DNA from: Chromohalobacter beijerinckii
GTDB taxonomy: Bacteria > Pseudomonadota > Gammaproteobacteria > Pseudomonadales > Halomonadaceae
NCBI RefSeq assembly: GCF_023061185.1
Contig: NZ_JAKGAK010000005.1
Span: 62,001 to 126,000 of the forward strand
DNA: 64,000 nucleotides
Direction: 5' to 3'
Shown here: one piece after another, positions 4,169 through 54,291 of the stretch
How positions within the stretch are numbered: the stretch's first letter is position 1
Layout: every line of letters begins with the position of its first letter
The notes under the pieces: generated by a model
What the model was told of the DNA's origin: nothing
The model's input: the letters and a program-made list of their open reading frames with translations, nothing else
The model's database searches: none
Made by a program: the position numbers and the translations under genes

Positions 4169-4428
4169 CCCCTAACTATCCAGCGTTTTCTAAAATGTCG
4201 GCGATTGAAGACACTTTTCCACTCAAAGCCTGGCACTGGAATGTAAAAAAGGAGTAGTCTAGCGTTACTGCCTGTATGCCTCCAGCCCAGACCAGACGGG
4301 GCTTTCACGCACGGTGCATGGCGTCGACTCAACACGCATAACGCCACTTGATCGCGCGCCGGCCGGTGGCCGGCGAAATAGCTGCCATTCCCACGCCTTC
4401 GCGTGGATGTCGTAGAGGACACGAGACC

Positions 4429-6897
4429 TTGGCCCCACATATCTTGCCTCCGTCGCTGACCGAGTTGCTGGAAGTATCAGGCATTGCACTCACGATTGCC
4501 GATGGTGAACAGCCTGGCTGCCCCCTGATATTCGTCAACAAGGGCTTCGAGCAACTCACCGGCTATGATCGCGAGGAAGTGCTGGGACGCTCATGCCGCC
4601 TGCTGCAGACGGTCGACCTTGCCCCCGAGGCGAGTCATTGCCTGCGTCGCGCCATCGAACACCGCACCCCGGTGACGATGACCCATGAAAACCGTCGCAA
4701 GGATGGCTCGCGATACGATAACGAGCTCACGTTGGCACCCTTGTACAGCCGCGACGGTCACTGCTATCTGGTCGGCGTGCAGCGCGATGTCAGCCAACGG
4801 CTGCGCCCGCGAACGCGCTGGCGACACCAGAGCCGCCTGCTCGATCGACTCAACGCCCAGGTGCCCGGTGTGCTGTTCCACTACCGGCAGGCCCCCGACG
4901 GTCGCGGTGACTTCCCTCACGTCAGTGAACGCCTGGCCGATTACTGCGGTCTCGAGCGCATGGCATTGACGCCCGACGCCGAATGCTTCTTCTCCCGGAT
5001 CGAGGACGACGATCGCACGCGACTGCGTGTCTCGCTGACATCCTCCGCCACCTCGCTGCGGTTATGCCAGGTCGTCTTTCGCTATCATCATCCCACTCGC
5101 GGGCTACGCTGGCTGGAATGCTCCGCCGTGCCTACCCGCTTGTCCAACGGCGGCACGCTGTGGCACGGCTATTTGACCGATGTCACCGCGCGCAAGCTCG
5201 CCACGGAACGCATGGCGCTGGCCGAAACGGTCTTCGACAGCACCCACGACGGCATTCTCGTGACCGATGCCGACAAGCGCATCATCGACGTCAATCCCGC
5301 TTTCACGAAGCTCACCGGCTACAGTGCCGACGAAGCCCTGGGACGCAAGCCGCACCTGCTGTCCTCGGGCAAGCACGATGCGAACTTCTACCACGACCTG
5401 TTCGCCACGGTGCATCAGCAAGGCTACTGGACAGGCGATATCTGGAATGTGCGCAAGGATGGCCGCCAGTTGATCGAAAACGCCACCATTTCGGCGATCC
5501 ACGATGCCGACGGCACCATCACGCACTATATCTCCGTCTTTCGCGACATCACCCAAAAGCACCTGAAGCAGGCGCGCCTGGAACGACGCGCGATTTACGA
5601 CCCGCTCACGGGCCTGTTCAATCGCGAACACTTCGGCGATGCACTGGAAAACCTGCTCTCCGGACTTTCCTACACCGGCATCGGGATCGCCGTCCTGTTC
5701 ATCGACCTCGACGACTTCAAGCCGGTCAACGACACCTATGGCCATGCCGCCGGCGATGACGCCCTCGTGACCATCGCCCAACGGCTCAAGCAACAGACGC
5801 GCAGCACCGACCTGGTCGCCCGTCTGGGCGGCGACGAATTCGTCATCGCACTGGCAGGCATACGCAGCGCGGAAAAGGCCGAGAAAGTCGCCTTGAAGAT
5901 CCTCGACGACCTGATCAGCCCCATCAACCTGCGCAACGAGCAAAGCATCACGCTCTCGGCCTCCGTGGGGGTCGCCTATACCGACGACAGCCGCTTTGCC
6001 CCGGACGCCCTGATCGCCGCCGCCGACAGCGCGATGTACGAAGCCAAGAGTCGTGGCAAGAATCAGGTCGCCATCACCGAGCATCAGCAGGCCAACGGCG
6101 ACGATCTCTACACCCGACTACAGACCGCGCTGGACGACGGTGAGCTGGCCCTTTTCTATCAGCCGATTCTCTCGTTGAACGACGGGCGCATCGTCAGCTT
6201 CGAGGCCCTGGTGCGCTGGTACCACCCCGAGCAGGGCTTGCTCGCGCCGCATCATTTCATCGACATCGTCAATCACTCGTCCCTGCAGCGTGCCTATAGT
6301 GCCTGGCTGGTCAACCAGGCCGCGCATACCGTACAGCGCTTTCAGGCACGCGACATGGCGGTCACCGTCAGCATCAACGTGACGCGCGACCAGGTCGAAT
6401 CCGGCCAGCTCGCCGACGACATGGCACAGGCTCGGGAACGCCACGCCCTCGCTTCGCCCTTTCTCAACGTGGAAGTGGTGGAAACCGCCCAGTTCCACGA
6501 CATCGACCTGGCGTACAACCAGCTTCAGCATGCCCGTCGACTCGGCGCGCAAATCGCCCTCGACGACTTCGGCTCCGGCGTATCCTCGCTGACATATGCC
6601 AGCCAGCTCCCCATCGACATCGTGAAGATCGACCAGGCGGTGATTCGCCGCCTCGCCGAGCGTCCCCAGCAACGCCGCTACGTCAGCGGCATCATCGACA
6701 TGGCGCATGCCATGCAACGCATAGTACTCGCCGAGGGCGTCGAAACGCCTGAGCAGCTCGAGGTCCTGCGTCAAATGGGCTGCGACATGGCACAGGGCTT
6801 CCTTATCGGGCATCCCATGCCAAGCGAAGAACTCGAAGCACACTATCTGGCCGGCACGGCCCAACTCCTCTATCCACTCGCGTTACAGGCACAATAA
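4429..6897 (+). CDS. LOV-PAS-PAS-GGDEF-EAL protein, putative blue-light c-di-GMP enzyme
   Basis: About 822 residues, cytosolic, no membrane segment. Order: LOV-type PAS, a PAS_3-like domain, a PAS/PAC, GGDEF, EAL. The LOV core has GRSCRLLQ, with the photoactive cysteine encoded at 4594-4596, and keeps the flavin-contact residues in NRRKDG, YDNELTLAP and GVQRDV. The cyclase has an intact GGDEF and an RSTD inhibitory site five residues upstream. The EAL half has FEALVRW, DDFGSG, VKID and EGVET, so it should be a working phosphodiesterase. Start uncertain: TTG at 4429 has AGAGGA nine bases upstream; an in-frame TTG at 4348 adds 27 residues but has no ribosome site. It stands alone upstream of a tRNA gene. 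Confidence 0.88.
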   Translation: MAPHILPPSLTELLEVSGIALTIADGEQPGCPLIFVNKGFEQLTGYDREEVLGRSCRLLQTVDLAPEASHCLRRAIEHRTPVTMTHENRRKDGSRYDNELTLAPLYSRDGHCYLVGVQRDVSQRLRPRTRWRHQSRLLDRLNAQVPGVLFHYRQAPDGRGDFPHVSERLADYCGLERMALTPDAECFFSRIEDDDRTRLRVSLTSSATSLRLCQVVFRYHHPTRGLRWLECSAVPTRLSNGGTLWHGYLTDVTARKLATERMALAETVFDSTHDGILVTDADKRIIDVNPAFTKLTGYSADEALGRKPHLLSSGKHDANFYHDLFATVHQQGYWTGDIWNVRKDGRQLIENATISAIHDADGTITHYISVFRDITQKHLKQARLERRAIYDPLTGLFNREHFGDALENLLSGLSYTGIGIAVLFIDLDDFKPVNDTYGHAAGDDALVTIAQRLKQQTRSTDLVARLGGDEFVIALAGIRSAEKAEKVALKILDDLISPINLRNEQSITLSASVGVAYTDDSRFAPDALIAAADSAMYEAKSRGKNQVAITEHQQANGDDLYTRLQTALDDGELALFYQPILSLNDGRIVSFEALVRWYHPEQGLLAPHHFIDIVNHSSLQRAYSAWLVNQAAHTVQRFQARDMAVTVSINVTRDQVESGQLADDMAQARERHALASPFLNVEVVETAQFHDIDLAYNQLQHARRLGAQIALDDFGSGVSSLTYASQLPIDIVKIDQAVIRRLAERPQQRRYVSGIIDMAHAMQRIVLAEGVETPEQLEVLRQMGCDMAQGFLIGHPMPSEELEAHYLAGTAQLLYPLALQAQ

Positions 6898-6963
6898 AGG
6901 CGCCCGAAGCATGCCATGGGTTTATCCCGAGTCCCTGGACGCTTATAATGCCCACCCCGCCAC

Positions 6964-7610: not shown

Positions 7611-8837
7611 GGGAATCGCTGATCAATTCGTCTCTGAGCGGTTGAAGGGCTCAGAGTGGCACAACCATCGCGTCAGCGATCATTTTCTGACCACCTCAGG
7701 GGGTCCGTTTCCCTGCCAGGCGGATTATCCGGCTGGCAGGGCAGATTCAAGGCGCACTGGCCCCATCAACTTGGCCCTCGCATCGTGTCGCCAGCACCAG
7801 GTTGGCCAGCCCGAACAGGCTGAAGAGTTGCGCCTGGTTCTTGGCCAGCCCCTTGTAGCGCGTTTTGCGGTAGCCGAAGAGGTTCTTGATGACATGAAAC
7901 GGGTGCTCGACCTTGGCACGGATGCTGGCCTTGGCCTTTTCGAATGCCAGCAGCAGCGTTTTCATGGGGCTGCCGTCCATCTTCTTGATGGCGCCGCGCT
8001 TGGCGGCCACGCAGCATTTGGAATCCGGAGCATCCTTCTCTTCGTCGAGATGTTTCCACATGCCGGTGTAGCCCGCATCGCCGTATACCCGTTTGTCATC
8101 CTCCCGGACCAGAGCGCCGGCCATGGTGACATCGGCAACGTTGGCCGAGGTCGCGGCGACGCTGTGAGTCAGTCCGGTGACGGCATCGACGCCGATATGG
8201 GCCTTCATCCCGAAGTACCACTGGTTGCCCTTCTTGGTCTGTTTCATCTCTGGATCGCGCTGCTTGATCTTGTTCTTGGTGGAAGGGGCGGCCGCCACGA
8301 TGGTGGCGTCGACGATCGTGCCCTCGCGCATGAATAACCCTTTCTCGGCCAGGTGGGCGTTGATCTCCTCGAAGATCCGCTGGGTCAGGGCATGCTTCTC
8401 CAGCAAGTGGCGGAAACGCAGCAGCGTGGTCGCGTCCGGCACGCTCTCGATGGTCAAGTCGACACCCACGAAGTCGCGCATCGCCTGGCTATCGTAGATG
8501 GCATCTTCAAGTGCCTCGTCGGCGAGCGCATACCACTGCTGCAGGAAGTAGATCCGCAGCATGCGCTCCAGGCCGATGGGCGGACGGCCGCGCTTGCCCG
8601 TTGCGTTCGGGAAGTAAGACGGCGACAGCGCGTCGATGAGCCGTTGCCAAGGCACCAGCGCCTCCATCTGGGTCAGGAACCGCTCGCGGCGGGTCACCTT
8701 TTTCTTGTTCTGGTATTCGGCTTGGGCGAACGAGATCTGCTTCATCGGGTAGCTCGGTCAGGTGGTGACAGGGTAGCCAGATTCTACCCCGCCGATGGCG
8801 ATCAGGCAGCTGCGGCGGGATTTATGCAGCGTTTCCC
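7611..8837 (-). mobile_element. Complete IS5-family insertion sequence
   Basis: About 1227 bp. The terminal inverted repeats begin GGGAATCGCTG on the left and, read inward, GGGAAACGCTG on the right. The ends are flanked by TA on both sides (TTAG/CTAA contexts), consistent with the YTAR target preference of IS5-group elements. It carries one intact transposase gene and lies between a porin terminator and a small secreted gene. Confidence 0.88.
7747..8745 (-). CDS. IS5-family transposase
   Basis: 332 residues with the DDE chemistry of the IS5 group. The N-terminal helical domain carries SYFPNATGKRGRPPIGLERM. The three acidic positions are readable in GTIVDATIVAAAPS, KRVYGDAGYTGMW and RAKVEHPFHVIKNLFGYRKT, the last being the Y-(2)-R-(3)-E-(6)-K-like signature block. 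It is full length without frameshift, so the element may still be active. The gene fills most of the IS and is transcribed toward the tRNA. Confidence 0.95.
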   Translation of the reverse strand: MKQISFAQAEYQNKKKVTRRERFLTQMEALVPWQRLIDALSPSYFPNATGKRGRPPIGLERMLRIYFLQQWYALADEALEDAIYDSQAMRDFVGVDLTIESVPDATTLLRFRHLLEKHALTQRIFEEINAHLAEKGLFMREGTIVDATIVAAAPSTKNKIKQRDPEMKQTKKGNQWYFGMKAHIGVDAVTGLTHSVAATSANVADVTMAGALVREDDKRVYGDAGYTGMWKHLDEEKDAPDSKCCVAAKRGAIKKMDGSPMKTLLLAFEKAKASIRAKVEHPFHVIKNLFGYRKTRYKGLAKNQAQLFSLFGLANLVLATRCEGQVDGASAP

Positions 8838-13770: not shown

Positions 13771-15825
13771 CTACGTCTCGGGCGTATCGCCGTTGCCCAC
13801 CCAACGGCGCACCATCGCCACCAAATCACCGGGACGGTAAGGCTTGGCCAGGCAGTCATCCATGCCCGCCTGCAGAAAGGCTTCACGATTGGTTTGCGTG
13901 ACATTGGCGGTCAACGCCACCAGCACGCTGGCATGCCGCCTCGCCAGCCGACGCTCCAACCGACGCCAGCGACGACTGGTTTCCATGCCGTCGAGAGTCG
14001 GCATGTAGATGTCCATGAATACCAGATCGAACGATTGACGCTCGGCCAGCGCTAGCGCCTCCTCACCGTTCGTAGCGGTCTCGACATGACACCCCTGGCG
14101 CTCGAGTACGCTACATGCCAGCAGCGTATTGACGGGGCCATCATCGACGACTAGCACCCGGGGGCTCGCATCGCTTGAATGCGTATCGACCGCCGGCTTT
14201 TCCTCCGTCAAGGTATCGAGCAATAGCATGGCGTCTTCCAGCCGTCGCCGTAGCGCCTCCCACTGCGGCGGGCGATGAGGCGCATCGCCCTCGGGGGGCG
14301 AGGTCAGCGTATTAACGCAGGCTTCGAGTTCTTGGCGCAGGTGTGACAGATAGCCCGTCTTGAGACGTGCATCCTCACGCGCCTGATCACGGGCGAGGCG
14401 CAAGCGATGCAAGGTTTCGCCGGCCTCGGTCTGATCGATTAACCCCCAGACGGAGTGTTCACCACGCACGGCCAAGCATTCGAGACGATATTCACGCGCT
14501 CCTCCTCCCGCATCGCTCACCTGTACCCGGCGCCGTTGCTCGTCAACGAGCCGCGGCTTCAACCACTCGGTCAACAGAATGTCGCGCAATACCTCAGGGC
14601 GCTCGCCGAGCAACCTTGCCAAGGTAGGATTCAGCGTAACGATGGCGTCGCCGTCGGTGAGCAAGGCCGGTAGTTGCAGTGTATTGAGCCACGCCGGCAT
14701 GTCCCACGCATCGTTCAATGCGCGCGTGCCCAATTGCGGTTCGAGACGCGTCAATAGCGCATTCAAGGTAGAGGGCGAAACGGCGGTGATGTCCGGCGCA
14801 TCGCCCTGCGGACGGGGGAGCCAGCCTTTGAGCCTACCCAGCGCGGCCTGCCAGGCGTCCTCCTCGCGTTGCAACCGCCAATAGAGCACGGTCACGAAGC
14901 CTGCGAAGATCAGCACATTGCCGAGAATCAAGCCGATACTCAGCCATGGCAGCGCTTTCTGCCAGGCACTGTCGTCGGGCAGGCTCAGGCGACTCACCAG
15001 CCGCCAACCGGTGCTGGGCAGCGTGTCCCAGATCAGAGCCTGGCGGCCCTCCTCTAGCCACTGCATGCCATAACGCCCTGCGGCGTCCGGCAACACGCGG
15101 GAGGCTTCATCGCGCATCAAGGCATTCCCGGCGCTGTCGATCAGCCAGTGTTCCCCCATGTTGCCCGTCTCATCGCGAATCAAACGCTTCAACCGCGGTA
15201 GGGAGATTTCCATCCCCACCCGCGCGAGGTAACGCTCATTCCACATGACATCATGAGTGGCGACCAGACGTCCCGATGGTGCTTGCGCCTCGGTCCACCA
15301 AGTCACGTCTTCCACATCGCCAGGGACGGGCTCTCGCTGATATGGGGGAAGGCTGCTATCGATATCGTCCTGCAACTCGGGGACGCTGAACTCGCGCATG
15401 TCCACCGGCAAGACAAAGAGGCGAGTGACCAAGGCATCCATGCCGTCATAGTCATCGAGCAGCCTCGTCAGCCGCCGCTGGGTATCGTCGTGCGACAGCA
15501 CGGCCGGCAGTCCCGGAGCCATACTCGGGGAGGACGAAGCATGCTCTTCCATCGACTGAAGGATGCGCCGCGAGCCACGCGCAAGCATCACCAGATGCTG
15601 CTGTTGAGCGGTCAAGCGAGCGTCCAACTGGCGCGCGTAGACACTGTGCGAGGCCTGTAGACGCGCCAGCGCGTTTTCCGATTCACGACGGTCGCTCGCC
15701 TGCCAGATTAATGCCCCGGCGCCCAGGCACACCAACGTGAAGCCTATCTCGGCCAGCAACAACGGCCACAGCAACGCTTTCCAGCGCGAACGCTGGGGGC
15801 TCGAAGGAGTCGCGGCTTTGTGCAT
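13771..15825 (-). CDS. Membrane sensor with C-terminal receiver domain, lacking a kinase core
   Basis: About 684 residues. A membrane segment (roughly 23-43), a large periplasmic sensor region (about 44-300, Cache-like), a second membrane segment (IGLILGNVLIFAGFVTVLYW), a PAS-like region, then a helical stretch, and a C-terminal receiver (VLVVDDGPVN, phospho-acceptor in FMDIYMP, ALTAN, LAKPY). The helical stretch aligns with a dimerisation region (LKTGYLSHLRQELE) but the phosphorylated histidine is replaced by Q and no ATPase domain follows. It therefore looks like a hybrid kinase that lost its catalytic module. Start: ATG at 15825 chosen; ATGs at 15882 and 15903 are also in frame. Confidence 0.72.
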   Translation of the reverse strand: MHKAATPSSPQRSRWKALLWPLLLAEIGFTLVCLGAGALIWQASDRRESENALARLQASHSVYARQLDARLTAQQQHLVMLARGSRRILQSMEEHASSSPSMAPGLPAVLSHDDTQRRLTRLLDDYDGMDALVTRLFVLPVDMREFSVPELQDDIDSSLPPYQREPVPGDVEDVTWWTEAQAPSGRLVATHDVMWNERYLARVGMEISLPRLKRLIRDETGNMGEHWLIDSAGNALMRDEASRVLPDAAGRYGMQWLEEGRQALIWDTLPSTGWRLVSRLSLPDDSAWQKALPWLSIGLILGNVLIFAGFVTVLYWRLQREEDAWQAALGRLKGWLPRPQGDAPDITAVSPSTLNALLTRLEPQLGTRALNDAWDMPAWLNTLQLPALLTDGDAIVTLNPTLARLLGERPEVLRDILLTEWLKPRLVDEQRRRVQVSDAGGGAREYRLECLAVRGEHSVWGLIDQTEAGETLHRLRLARDQAREDARLKTGYLSHLRQELEACVNTLTSPPEGDAPHRPPQWEALRRRLEDAMLLLDTLTEEKPAVDTHSSDASPRVLVVDDGPVNTLLACSVLERQGCHVETATNGEEALALAERQSFDLVFMDIYMPTLDGMETSRRWRRLERRLARRHASVLVALTANVTQTNREAFLQAGMDDCLAKPYRPGDLVAMVRRWVGNGDTPET

Positions 15826-15919
15826 TCCCAACCCTGCTCGTGACGATGCAGCGAGTGTACGCGCTCGCTTACCGGCTGTCATGGCACGTGCGGGCCTCGG
15901 CATGGCGCGTTACGCTGGA

Positions 15920-52251: not shown

Positions 52252-54291
52252 CTAGCCGGCGTACCAGTGCACGCAATTGCGTCCCGCGTTCTTGGCCGCA
52301 TAGAGGCCTTCGTCGGCACGCTTGATGGCCGGCTCCAGAGACGCTTCGTCGGGGGCGACGCGCGCCACGCCCAGCGAGGCAGTGTAGGCCAGACGAACTG
52401 TCGCAACGACGTCGGTCTCTATCTCGACCGGCGTGGCCGAGACGGCCAGACGCAACCGCTCGGCGACCTGCATGGCCTGCTCGGGAGCCGTGTCGGGTAA
52501 CAGGACGATGAACTCCTCACCGCCCATACGACACAGGATGTCTCCCTCGCGTAACTGTGTACGCGCGGTATCGGCGAAGGACTGCAGCACCAGATCGCCC
52601 ACATCATGGCCGTGAGTGTCGTTGATGCGCTTGAAGTGATCCAGGTCGATGACGATCAGGCTCAGTGACGTTCCGCGACGGCATGCCCGCGCCATTTCCT
52701 TGGCCGCCTGCCCCTTCAGGTAGCGTCGATTCCACAACCCGGTCAACGGATCGACCATAGCCTGCTCGGCCAGGCGCGCCTCGAGCTGCTTGCGCTCGCT
52801 CAGATCGAATACCGTGGCACGGGAATATTGAAAGCACCCTTCGATGACTTGGGCGGTGGCCTGAATGACCACCGGTAGCCGGGTACCGTCACGGCACATG
52901 AGCACACACTCCGCGCCCCCTTCCTGCCCCGCGCTCAGCACGCCCCGAAACGCATCGTCGAACGCTGCACGCGTATCGGGGGTCACGAAATCGCGATAAT
53001 GCCATTTGTCGATCACCTCATCGACCCGATAACCCAGCCACTCCAGCTCGGTGCGGTTGATCTTCACGATACGGCCATCGCTATCCAGCGAATGATAGCC
53101 ACAGGGCGCATTCTCATAGAGATCCTGTACCTCGCCGGCATACTGCTGCGATTCCCTGGAGAGATGCTGGGCTTCGCGGGAAAACTCCATCGCTTGGCGA
53201 CGCAAGTAACGTTGGCGATGCAGGCTGAGCACCCACAGCACCCCCACGATCACTGAAAGCAGATAGATAAGCCCGAGCACCGCGATTTGCCAGGGACTCT
53301 CCGCCAGCAAGCCAGCCAAGCTGGGGCGCGGCACCACGATCCCCAGCTGCCAGGGTTGAGATGCCGGTGGGGTGACGATCGTACCCGCCTTGTTGCTCTC
53401 GGCAGCCGTGCGAATATCCTGCGTGCGGAATAGCAAGAGATCGTCATCCAGCAATATCTCGCCCTGCAGTTGGGAAGAGAGATCGTGCCAGACCTTGGGA
53501 TAGCGATCCGCGAGGGAATCACCGAAGCGAAGCCCTTCCTCGGTGTTGGGCAGCAGCCATTTGCCCTGATCATCCACCATGACGGCCCGCACTCCTTCGC
53601 CGCTGTCGATGGCATGCGGAAGGCTCGCCGTGAGGTAATGCCAATCCAGGGTAAACAACAGCATCCCCAAACGTTGGCCGTTCTGACCAAATACCGGCGT
53701 GGCGATATCGATCACCGCCGTAGTGACCGTCTTGCCCTCCCGACGGCTCTCCCCGAGGCGGGGGGCGGAAATATAGAGCCCCCGGGGCGGCAAGCGCTTC
53801 GTACCACGGAAAACTCCCGTCTGAGCGTACCGGGTACCTGTCGGGTACGGCAGCAGGCGCGAGCCAGCCTCAAGAAGCTCTTCGCCGGTCGTGTCGATGA
53901 GCACTAGACGTGTATAGCGACCGAAATGGGTCACCAGGGTTTCGAGCATGGCGGCCAATTGTTCCAGGGTGTCTTCCCGATCCTTGAGTGCCACGCCCTC
54001 CCGCACATTGCGCAGATGGCGTCGCAATATCGGCAGTTCGGCCACCGCCAGCACCTGGTTGAAGCTCTCGTTCATGTCGTGCAATAGAGCATCGTATTCG
54101 GCGTTCAACAGCGTCGTCGCACCATGGCGACTGCTGTCGAGGCGTGCCTCCAAGTGAGTCCGGAAAATCGGGTACAGCATGGCCGTAACCAACAGAAGGG
54201 GCACGATGGTCGCGATGACCAGGCGTGCCCCGAGCGTCTTCAAGCGCATCATGGGAAATAATCGCAATCGGCGGCGGACGATGCCCGTCAC
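52252..54291 (-). CDS. Membrane diguanylate cyclase with Cache and PAS domains
   Basis: 679 residues. Two membrane helices (about 22-43 and 340-362) enclose a dCache-like periplasmic sensor (DTTGEELLEAGSRLL, VDDQGKWLLPN). A cytosolic PAS (about 395-515, ENAPCGYHSLDSDGRIVKINR) and a GGDEF domain with intact GGEEF and an REGD inhibitory site five residues before it follow. It should make c-di-GMP with product inhibition. The start GTG at 54291 has AAGGAAGG just before it; ATGs at 54252 and 54249 are alternatives. Confidence 0.9.
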   Translation of the reverse strand: MTGIVRRRLRLFPMMRLKTLGARLVIATIVPLLLVTAMLYPIFRTHLEARLDSSRHGATTLLNAEYDALLHDMNESFNQVLAVAELPILRRHLRNVREGVALKDREDTLEQLAAMLETLVTHFGRYTRLVLIDTTGEELLEAGSRLLPYPTGTRYAQTGVFRGTKRLPPRGLYISAPRLGESRREGKTVTTAVIDIATPVFGQNGQRLGMLLFTLDWHYLTASLPHAIDSGEGVRAVMVDDQGKWLLPNTEEGLRFGDSLADRYPKVWHDLSSQLQGEILLDDDLLLFRTQDIRTAAESNKAGTIVTPPASQPWQLGIVVPRPSLAGLLAESPWQIAVLGLIYLLSVIVGVLWVLSLHRQRYLRRQAMEFSREAQHLSRESQQYAGEVQDLYENAPCGYHSLDSDGRIVKINRTELEWLGYRVDEVIDKWHYRDFVTPDTRAAFDDAFRGVLSAGQEGGAECVLMCRDGTRLPVVIQATAQVIEGCFQYSRATVFDLSERKQLEARLAEQAMVDPLTGLWNRRYLKGQAAKEMARACRRGTSLSLIVIDLDHFKRINDTHGHDVGDLVLQSFADTARTQLREGDILCRMGGEEFIVLLPDTAPEQAMQVAERLRLAVSATPVEIETDVVATVRLAYTASLGVARVAPDEASLEPAIKRADEGLYAAKNAGRNCVHWYAG

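Follow-up and report, generated by a model that had tools for sequence, protein, structure and literature searches.

The gene and its domains

Does a protein encoded in this halophile genome allow blue light to act on c-di-GMP? The question is raised by an open reading frame at 4429–6897 on the + strand of the window (the whole stretch of DNA analysed, 64,000 nucleotides), which encodes a Chromohalobacter protein of 822 amino acids and which we judge to be a real gene.

4429..6897, + strand: gene for the LOV-PAS-PAS-GGDEF-EAL protein, 822 aa (sequence, Pfam, orthologs)
4414..4419, + strand: AGAGGA, 9 nt upstream of the TTG codon and probably the ribosome-binding site (sequence; orthologs)

The TTG start lies at the same place in all nine intact Chromohalobacter orthologs and is preceded by AGAGGA in eight of them; one ortholog of the nine carries a stop codon 4 codons upstream. 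A Pfam search delineates an EAL domain (residues 563–796; 3.8e-60), a GGDEF domain (residues 388–546; 9.5e-45) and three stretches matching the PAS_3 model, in agreement with the two further PAS domains that the first-pass annotation had placed between LOV and GGDEF. This arrangement is not a chance one, since the LOV part matches the PDB with an E-value of 2e-22 and the domain order is also met in other genera. From the AF2 model of the full-length protein no reliable arrangement of the domains can be drawn (pTM 0.43). Literature searches on LOV photoreceptors in Chromohalobacter and on LOV domains and blue light in Halomonas gave no description of the protein. Sequence, fold and orthologs all support the presence, in this halophile genus, of a LOV protein whose GGDEF and EAL motifs are both intact.

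The LOV domain and its flavin site

4480..4803, + strand: LOV domain (residues 18–125, bounds set by us; PDB, AF2, Foldseek)
4591..4593, + strand: codon of S55, at the oat LOV2 N449 position (alignment)
4594..4596, + strand: codon of the photoactive cysteine C56, which is C450 in oat LOV2 (sequence, PDB alignment)
4690..4692, + strand: codon of N88, oat LOV2 N482, predicted flavin contact (alignment)
4720..4722, + strand: codon of N98, oat LOV2 N492, predicted flavin contact; Ser in 7/9 intact Chromohalobacter orthologs (alignment)
4780..4782, + strand: codon of the signal-relay glutamine Q118, which is Q513 in oat LOV2 (alignment)

The best PDB match of the LOV part is 8c05, a LOV-activated diguanylate cyclase (82 bits). 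Comparison of a predicted structure with LOV folds had been proposed in the first-pass annotation as a check; an AF2 model of the domain (pLDDT 78.3) returns LOV entries for all 50 of the Foldseek matches listed, so that the fold part of the claim stands unrefuted. The cysteine motif GRSCRLLQ, with C56 inside it, and the Asn, Asn and Gln said to hold the flavin (N88, N98 and Q118) are in place as announced. The domain presents the Arg, Gln, Asn, Asn and Gln by which the flavin site of a LOV photoreceptor is recognized (R57, Q60, N88, N98 and Q118), and R73 besides: with equivalents assigned by offset from C450, we take R57, Q60, R73, N88, N98 and Q118 to be R451, Q454, R467, N482, N492 and Q513 of oat LOV2. 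The PDB match, the key residues and the Foldseek matches rule out a generic PAS domain mistaken for LOV. An internal contrast is provided by the third PAS domain of the same chain, which has no LOV cysteine motif and whose best single stretch scores 51 bits against the PDB, compared with 82 bits for the LOV domain.

The residue directly before the cysteine departs from the usual asparagine: residue 55 is a serine. This serine is shared by 23 of the 33 LOV-bearing rows of the family alignment and by none of 29 comparison LOVs (Asn in 27, Asp in two), a set found by LOV similarity (E <= 1e-15) and used for residue 55 only. We rejected these 29 as a yardstick of LOV erosion, because selection by LOV similarity hides eroded LOVs. 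In oat LOV2 recovery is sped up by V416T, as it is by replacing N449 with serine. For N449S an adduct lifetime of 0.99 s is reported, no faster dark recovery having been published before 2023 (PMC10751770), so that we do not take S55 to disqualify the domain as a LOV, and by analogy the adduct of the window protein is expected to be short-lived (seconds). The same report describes no flavin binding when N449 is replaced by A, I, K or T (PMC10751770), from which flavin binding may be weak with S55. Opposing the prediction of a fast cycle, the residue of the window protein that matches oat N414 is an alanine (A20), and the N414A mutation is reported to slow recovery (PMC3903614).

The GGDEF and EAL domains

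5590..6066, + strand: GGDEF domain (residues 388–546), motif GGDEF at 467–471 (Pfam, alignment)
5800..5811, + strand: RxxD I-site (R458–D461), five residues before GGDEF (sequence, alignment)
6115..6816, + strand: EAL domain (residues 563–796), EAL motif at 592–594 (Pfam, alignment)

Both enzyme motifs, RxxD included, prove to be as intact as was first claimed. Among positions that we chose as catalytic, a single cell departs in the GGDEF domain (14 positions in 35 rows, 1/490) and a single one in the EAL domain (15 positions in 35 rows, 1/525), in each case in a LOV-less paralog row; positions 542 and 798, which are variable and which we do not regard as catalytic, and six further columns of the EAL and GGDEF regions that hardly vary were left uncounted. 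Outside this count, the loop-6 consensus of EAL domains, DFGTGYSS (from 61 rows), differs from the family in that its Tyr is V, I or M in all 35 rows. To judge from the sequence, both enzyme sites look competent. The linker from the Asp of the third PAS domain to the Leu of the GGDEF DxLT motif is 21 residues long in 35/35 rows, as in the short-linker class of LOV-GGDEF proteins (PMC10396304).

The integrity of the GGDEF and I-site residues raises the question of whether light mainly alters c-di-GMP synthesis, the protein being a light-regulated diguanylate cyclase rather than a phosphodiesterase. The linker length would suit this, since light activation of short-linker LOV-GGDEF cyclases is reported to be on the order of 15-fold (PMC10396304), and a LOV-GGDEF fragment from Mesorhizobium loti is described as losing its activity in blue light (PMC9098866). 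Yet the EAL residues are equally conserved, and SL2, the closest characterized LOV-GGDEF-EAL protein, is reported to be a phosphodiesterase (PMC8846402). We therefore consider a light-regulated cyclase unlikely.

The inner PAS domains

4807..5193, + strand: middle PAS domain (residues 127–255, PAS_3-like; Pfam, alignment)
5206..5562, + strand: third PAS domain (residues 260–378, PAS_9; Pfam, PDB search, alignment)
5428..5430, + strand: codon of W334, which aligns with the Trp that coordinates FAD in NifL; 35/35 rows (alignment)
5446..5448, + strand: codon of N340, which aligns with the Asn that coordinates FAD in NifL; 34/35 rows (alignment)

The middle PAS domain is found in all nine Chromohalobacter rows and in none of the 26 others of the 35-row alignment. 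Its best PDB match is weak (E 0.19), and a search of the genome at E <= 1 gave no second copy of it. Of the four domains compared, the third PAS domain is the richest in invariant columns (46%, versus 6% for the LOV domain in 33 rows). It resembles flavin-binding PAS domains, the best single stretches being those of MmoS (51.1 bits), NifL (50.1 bits) and the LOV domain 7yx0 (50.0 bits); the lower whole-chain E-value of MmoS stems from two PAS stretches. On these scores the third PAS domain is no nearer to the FAD type of NifL and MmoS than to a LOV domain.

This resemblance, with W334 and N340 conserved almost throughout, could mean that the flavin of the LOV domain, of the third PAS domain or of both reports redox state or oxygen and that light is incidental, as proposed for the PASd domain of RmcA. 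That domain is described as devoid of the cysteine and nevertheless linked to light and phenazine effects (PMC8846402), and the enzyme residues are kept in those orthologs that lack the photoactive cysteine. However, the near-equal scores place the third PAS domain no closer to the FAD type, a Pseudomonas PAS domain with the same Trp and Asn is reported to have bound no FAD (PMC10874727), and C56 is kept in the window protein. A flavin redox or oxygen sensor thus seems to us quite improbable.

Possible LOV erosion beside a conserved enzyme in the Halomonadaceae

The PAS-GGDEF-EAL part is present in 34 of 275 Halomonadaceae genomes (E <= 1e-165), with neighbour genes in common at 19 of the 21 loci checked; the genes called rsmC, cmoM and greB are presumptive identifications from Pfam matches. 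Conservation differs along the chain: 2 of 1015 cells depart at the catalytic positions, versus 34 of 165 at five core LOV residues. All five are kept in 17 of the 33 LOV-bearing rows, the window protein among them, and at least one is missing in the other 16. The photoactive Cys is absent in 4/33 rows, and the Gln at the Q118 position, kept in the window protein, is His in 4/33. The LOV domains of altered rows show 43.2% identity and those of intact rows 54.1%, a difference of which about 5 of 11 points may follow by construction, since the label itself rests on the five residues. Within Chromohalobacter, where most copies have Ser at the N98 position, the LOV site is whole in two of the nine intact ones, the window protein and its nearest relative, and one of the ten genomes holds a deletion remnant only.

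Among the nine Chromohalobacter copies dN/dS is 0.147 for LOV (bootstrap 95% 0.091–0.211), 0.063 for GGDEF and 0.070 for EAL. The LOV domain is therefore under purifying selection, with a dN/dS well below 1. A short LOV encoded in the same ten genomes, taken as a within-genus control for erosion, has seven key residues identical in 10/10; we do not claim that the dN/dS of our LOV exceeds that of the short LOV, which holds in 94.4% of bootstraps only.

Some copies have no LOV domain, and we rejected the idea that they lost it in place. In genomes G098 and G121, where they were mapped, they sit between cmoM and rsmC, and G062 has a match like them; G098 and G062 also carry a LOV-bearing copy close by, and the two LOV-less copies used form a separate long branch in the tree. 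Because of this own locus, the nearby LOV-bearing copies and the long branch, we take them as paralogs and exclude them from the LOV counts. The second copy of G062 is not among the rows, and the first copies of G062 and G098, identical in the core, are both counted. Three paralogs in the flanks of the loci (L051, L052 and L057; 30–36% identity) were left out.

A tentative scenario, which we hold to be possible but somewhat short of probable, is that a single light-sensing c-di-GMP enzyme has been losing its light sense repeatedly in the Halomonadaceae, with enzyme and inner PAS domain intact. Erosion would have begun with the change of Asn to Ser beside the Cys, turning the LOV domain into a fast sensor that responds to bright light only or binds flavin weakly; the Asn pair, the Gln or the Cys would then have been dropped in several lineages, Chromohalobacter would have gained its extra PAS domain, and related species would form a series from working to dead sensor. 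Counts of changes on the family tree cannot tell gain from loss.

The same observations could also describe a sensor that is already vestigial, whose LOV domain folds and aids dimerization while light is irrelevant in the lineage and the third PAS domain governs the enzyme. The core residues and cysteines missing across the family, N98S and the remnant in Chromohalobacter, the dN/dS of LOV relative to GGDEF and EAL, and the invariance of the third PAS domain next to the LOV domain are all in its favour. It sits poorly with the whole LOV site of the window protein and its nearest relative and with the selection acting on the domain. Moreover, when flavin-ring residues of oat LOV2 other than the Cys were replaced by inert groups, the photocycle is reported to have persisted (54 s for N492A), although the same work failed to produce N482A and N492Q, probably because these variants do not bind FMN (PMC3903614). 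We regard a vestigial sensor as fairly unlikely.

Proposed mechanism

On balance we lean towards a soluble receptor through which blue light modulates the turnover of c-di-GMP, and it is plausible that light sets c-di-GMP levels. Blue light would excite FMN in the LOV domain and, by the chemistry of the family, C56 would form a thioether adduct with the flavin. The signal would leave through Q118 and the LOV sheet for the C-terminal helix, pass the inserted middle PAS domain and the conserved third one, which may itself contribute redox or flavin input, and arrive at the GGDEF-EAL pair by way of a helix whose length is constant (the 21 residues observed). The expected net output is a phosphodiesterase activity altered by light, in a direction at which we can guess only, with GGDEF as a second activity or a regulator in the manner of SL2. 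SL2 is reported to hydrolyse c-di-GMP in blue light (PMC8846402). With a short-lived adduct, the receptor would respond to sustained bright light and would keep no record of a flash. Against the proposal, two truncated LOV-GGDEF constructs of LOV-GGDEF-EAL proteins are reported to have shown no cyclase activity regulated by light (PMC10396304). The possibly weak flavin binding with S55, N98S and the remnant in Chromohalobacter, the loop-6 Tyr replaced throughout the family and the AF2 model of the full-length protein count against it as well.

Significance and comparison with known systems

The LOV-GGDEF-EAL architecture is well known and common: by one account, GGDEF or GGDEF plus EAL domains are found in about 18% of bacterial LOV proteins (PMC4844311). 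The window protein is a mostly ordinary example of it with a testable evolutionary twist. Its function would link light to c-di-GMP in salt-loving bacteria and hence, we infer, to attachment and motility. Most of the orthologs share a gene neighbourhood, and with their enzyme residues conserved and their LOV domain varying by degrees they form a useful comparative series. On it one can test whether LOVs in which the Asn pair, Gln or Cys is missing remain able to signal, whether a fast photocycle follows from a natural Ser at the N449 position, and in what way photosensory input can disappear while the enzyme stays.

DosP of Escherichia coli, which provides the top Foldseek matches of the full-length model, with a large rmsd, has the order PAS-GGDEF-EAL like the window protein; it differs in being a haem-based oxygen sensor with no LOV domain. 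RmcA of Pseudomonas aeruginosa also joins several PAS domains to a GGDEF-EAL pair, and PDB entry 5m3c (PA0575, which we take to be RmcA) is among the best Foldseek matches. Its fourth PAS domain is described as LOV-like and devoid of the Cys (PMC8846402), unlike the window LOV. The closest sequence match of that LOV lies with MsLadC and the LOV-activated diguanylate cyclases (8c05). MsLadC itself is assigned to the 35-residue linker class and not to the short-linker class, whose 21-residue sensor-GGDEF linker the window protein shares, and the LadC set was selected for a single LOV directly followed by a C-terminal GGDEF (PMC10396304), whereas here two PAS domains intervene and an EAL domain follows. 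SL2 of Synechococcus elongatus combines, like the window protein, LOV, GGDEF and EAL in one chain with the canonical Cys (PMC8846402); the window protein, known here from its sequence, adds two PAS domains between LOV and GGDEF and a Ser at residue 55. Finally, the M. loti protein WP_140774521.1 resembles this family as a LOV-GGDEF-EAL protein with a departure in the LOV site, reported as Gln to Met (PMC9098866), a Gln that the window protein keeps.

The gene and its domains

The gene under study encodes a multidomain protein.

4429-6897, + strand: LOV–PAS–PAS–GGDEF–EAL gene, 822 aa
Residues 388-546: GGDEF domain (Pfam)
Residues 563-796: EAL domain (Pfam)

Pfam also places PAS stretches N-terminal to the GGDEF domain, and the motif positions of both enzyme domains are intact, which bears out the first-pass annotation of complete GGDEF and EAL motifs with two further PAS domains in between. 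Below its cut-off, NCBIfam links the protein to DibA and its residues 11-142 to the YtvA blue-light family. The TTG start position is common to all nine intact Chromohalobacter orthologs, with AGAGGA 5′ of it in eight; the ninth has a stop codon four codons 5′ of the start. The nearest named ortholog found, at 95% identity, is from Chromohalobacter israelensis.

The genome contains 19 GGDEF matches (18 over the cut-off), ten EAL matches and no BLUF match. Within the window, a second strong GGDEF match lies at 52276-52761 (−) in a 706-aa frame (E = 8.4e-48), and a 710-aa ORF at 13771-15903 (−) has only a C-terminal response-regulator receiver as its Pfam match. A DDE transposase at 7747-8745 (−) is probably part of a recently moved element, since it lies in a 1232-bp stretch with 99.8% identity to a second Chromohalobacter genome (G064), compared with 87% for the flanking DNA.

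The first domain is a LOV domain with an unusual Ser55

By the available sequence and model tests, the first domain is a LOV domain, as had been proposed. A LOV-activated diguanylate cyclase, 8c05, heads its PDB sequence matches (E = 2e-22; the matched stretch scores 82 bits), and LOV photoreceptors come next among the best 60 of 142. The suggested structure comparison gave the same answer: an 18-row alignment gave an AF2 model (pLDDT 78.3, pTM 0.73) whose best 50 of 533 Foldseek matches at E ≤ 0.001 are LOV entries. The 8c05 structure superposes at 2.1 Å over 117 columns; many other matches give 7-9 Å over 128-143 columns, ends included. The claimed photoactive cysteine and Asn, Asn and Gln are present as C56, N88, N98 and Q118, and sequence comparison makes these, with R57, Q60 and R73, the counterparts of flavin-site residues in known LOVs.

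The sole departing position is residue 55, a serine (oat LOV2 N449, in a numbering that we assume from the offset from C450). The family alignment took 35 of the 36 listed matches, 33 with a LOV domain and two LOV-less paralogs. Residue 55 in the 33 is S in 23, A in 3, N in 2, P in 2, and D, R and G in one each; where the LOV site is otherwise whole (17 rows) it is S in 15 and N in 2. A LOV search across 329 genomes of the phylum gave matches in 46 at E ≤ 1e-15, and the 29 comparison loci (excluding that of the window) carry N in 27, D in 2 and S in none. By analogy with oat LOV2 N449S, Ser55 is predicted either to speed the photocycle or to weaken flavin binding. A20, at the oat N414 position, would pull against a fast photocycle; oat LOV2 N414A recovers more slowly, according to an excerpt of PMC3903614.

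Enzyme residues are kept while LOV residues vary

Across all 35 rows, only one of 490 cells departs at 14 chosen GGDEF positions and one of 525 at 15 chosen EAL positions, both in LOV-less paralogs and none among the 33 LOV-bearing rows. Every row has V, I or M where the wider consensus places the Tyr of EAL loop 6. At C56, Q60, N88, N98 and Q118, 34 of 165 cells depart in the LOV-bearing rows. All five residues are kept in 17 of these 33 ('intact'), the Cys in 29, both Asn in 18 and the Gln of strand I in 29. On a core tree with six open forks, the minimum is at least five changes for the intact/altered label, three for Cys, four for the Asn pair and two for Gln. Outside Chromohalobacter, LOV identity to the query is 54.1% in 15 intact rows versus 43.2% in nine altered rows; between the same sets there is no drop in the third PAS (65.6/66.2%), GGDEF (59.4/60.1%) or EAL domain (49.7/51.5%).

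Nine of ten Chromohalobacter genomes examined carry the full gene; N98 is kept in two of these (the window genome and G064) and is Ser in seven. The tenth genome, G100, lacks the DNA corresponding to window positions 4539-6265 and 6792-6914, and what is left of its EAL part has a frame change: this copy is a deletion remnant. All ten genomes also encode a short LOV protein with its seven key residues kept, so at least one LOV protein exists there besides this type.

L079 (stretch of G100, contig C274), 4097-4841: LOV-gene deletion remnant; LOV start adjoins a late EAL stretch
L080 (stretch of the window genome, contig C45), 4984-5466: short stand-alone LOV, about 144 aa, motif DCRFLQ, key residues kept; about 29 kb past the window end

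Table. Pairwise dN/dS in the nine Chromohalobacter genomes with the full gene (range from 1000 codon bootstraps)
LOV domain: 0.147 (0.091-0.211)
Middle PAS: 0.208 (0.130-0.294)
Third PAS: 0.084 (0.047-0.133)
GGDEF: 0.063 (0.038-0.092)
EAL: 0.070 (0.049-0.095)
Short LOV, same genomes: 0.084 (0.045-0.144)

These values place the LOV domain under purifying selection that is weaker than on the enzyme domains: over 99% of bootstraps place its dN/dS above those of GGDEF and EAL, and only 94.4% place it above that of the short LOV.

The inner PAS domains and the linker

The middle PAS is present in all nine Chromohalobacter rows and in none of the other 26. It looks like a clean module, because the 18 residues from its terminal Asp to the Phe of the third PAS in the window protein equal the LOV Asp-to-Phe spacing in 18 of 24 LOV-bearing rows outside Chromohalobacter (14 residues in the other six, all from one group of relatives, g19). 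Invariant columns over the 33 rows amount to 46% in the third PAS, 35% in GGDEF, 26% in EAL and 6% in LOV. The best single PDB stretches for the third PAS are MmoS (51.1 bits), NifL (50.1) and a LOV (50.0), near-equal scores that point to a flavin-PAS-like domain without favouring an FAD type. Trp334 is found in 35/35 rows and Asn340 in 34/35. The available part of PMC10874727 describes the Trp and Asn aligned with these as coordinating FAD in NifL, and a Pseudomonas PAS with both residues for which FAD binding was not found. The linker between the third PAS and GGDEF is 21 residues in 35/35 rows, the length in short-linker LOV–GGDEF cyclases as given in a portion of PMC10396304.

Orthologs and gene neighbourhood

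A search with the PAS–GGDEF–EAL part gave matches at E ≤ 1e-165 in 34 of 275 Halomonadaceae genomes (8 of 24 genera); among 390 sampled genomes of the order, five match at 1e-140, every one from Halomonadaceae. We checked the neighbours of 21 loci in 20 genomes, of which 18 came from one set and three from another (one of them a repeat), and cmoM and rsmC adjoin the gene at 19. Neither was found within the 13-14 kb examined beside the two loci of group g10 (L051 in G244 and L052 in G161). Both of these orthologs retain the Asn that precedes the Cys, and they are possibly relocated or recombined copies.

The LOV-less PAS–GGDEF–EAL paralogs (L053 in G098 and L054 in G121; 601- and 615-aa frames) are flanked by cmoM and rsmC. 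G098 also has a LOV-bearing copy nearby, and none was found in the 13 kb examined in G121. Another LOV protein type occurs in Vreelandella/Halomonas (L130, L134 and L135); a simple pattern search found an EAL motif in two of the three and a GGDEF motif in none.

Proposed working and comparison with known systems

The LOV domain would bind FMN and form an adduct at C56; the signal may then pass through the PAS relay and change the rate of the PDE and/or the DGC. A full-length AF2 model (pLDDT 85.2, pTM 0.43) does not fix the domain arrangement, and its best Foldseek matches (DosP, PA0861, PA0575 and MorA) have large r.m.s.d.s. The best precedent is SL2, a LOV–GGDEF–EAL PDE active under blue light, as described in part of PMC8846402. 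A Mesorhizobium loti LOV–GGDEF–EAL fragment lacking the Gln is a blue-light-repressed cyclase in the accessible text of PMC9098866, which advises caution, as altered LOVs can still signal.

The architecture is of a kind already known: GGDEF, or GGDEF and EAL together, is found in about 18% of bacterial LOV proteins, according to an extract of PMC4844311. Judged from sequence, what appears new is the Ser55 of the family, the PAS inserted in Chromohalobacter and the gradation of the LOV domain among orthologs; these set the protein apart from what would otherwise be an ordinary member of this kind.
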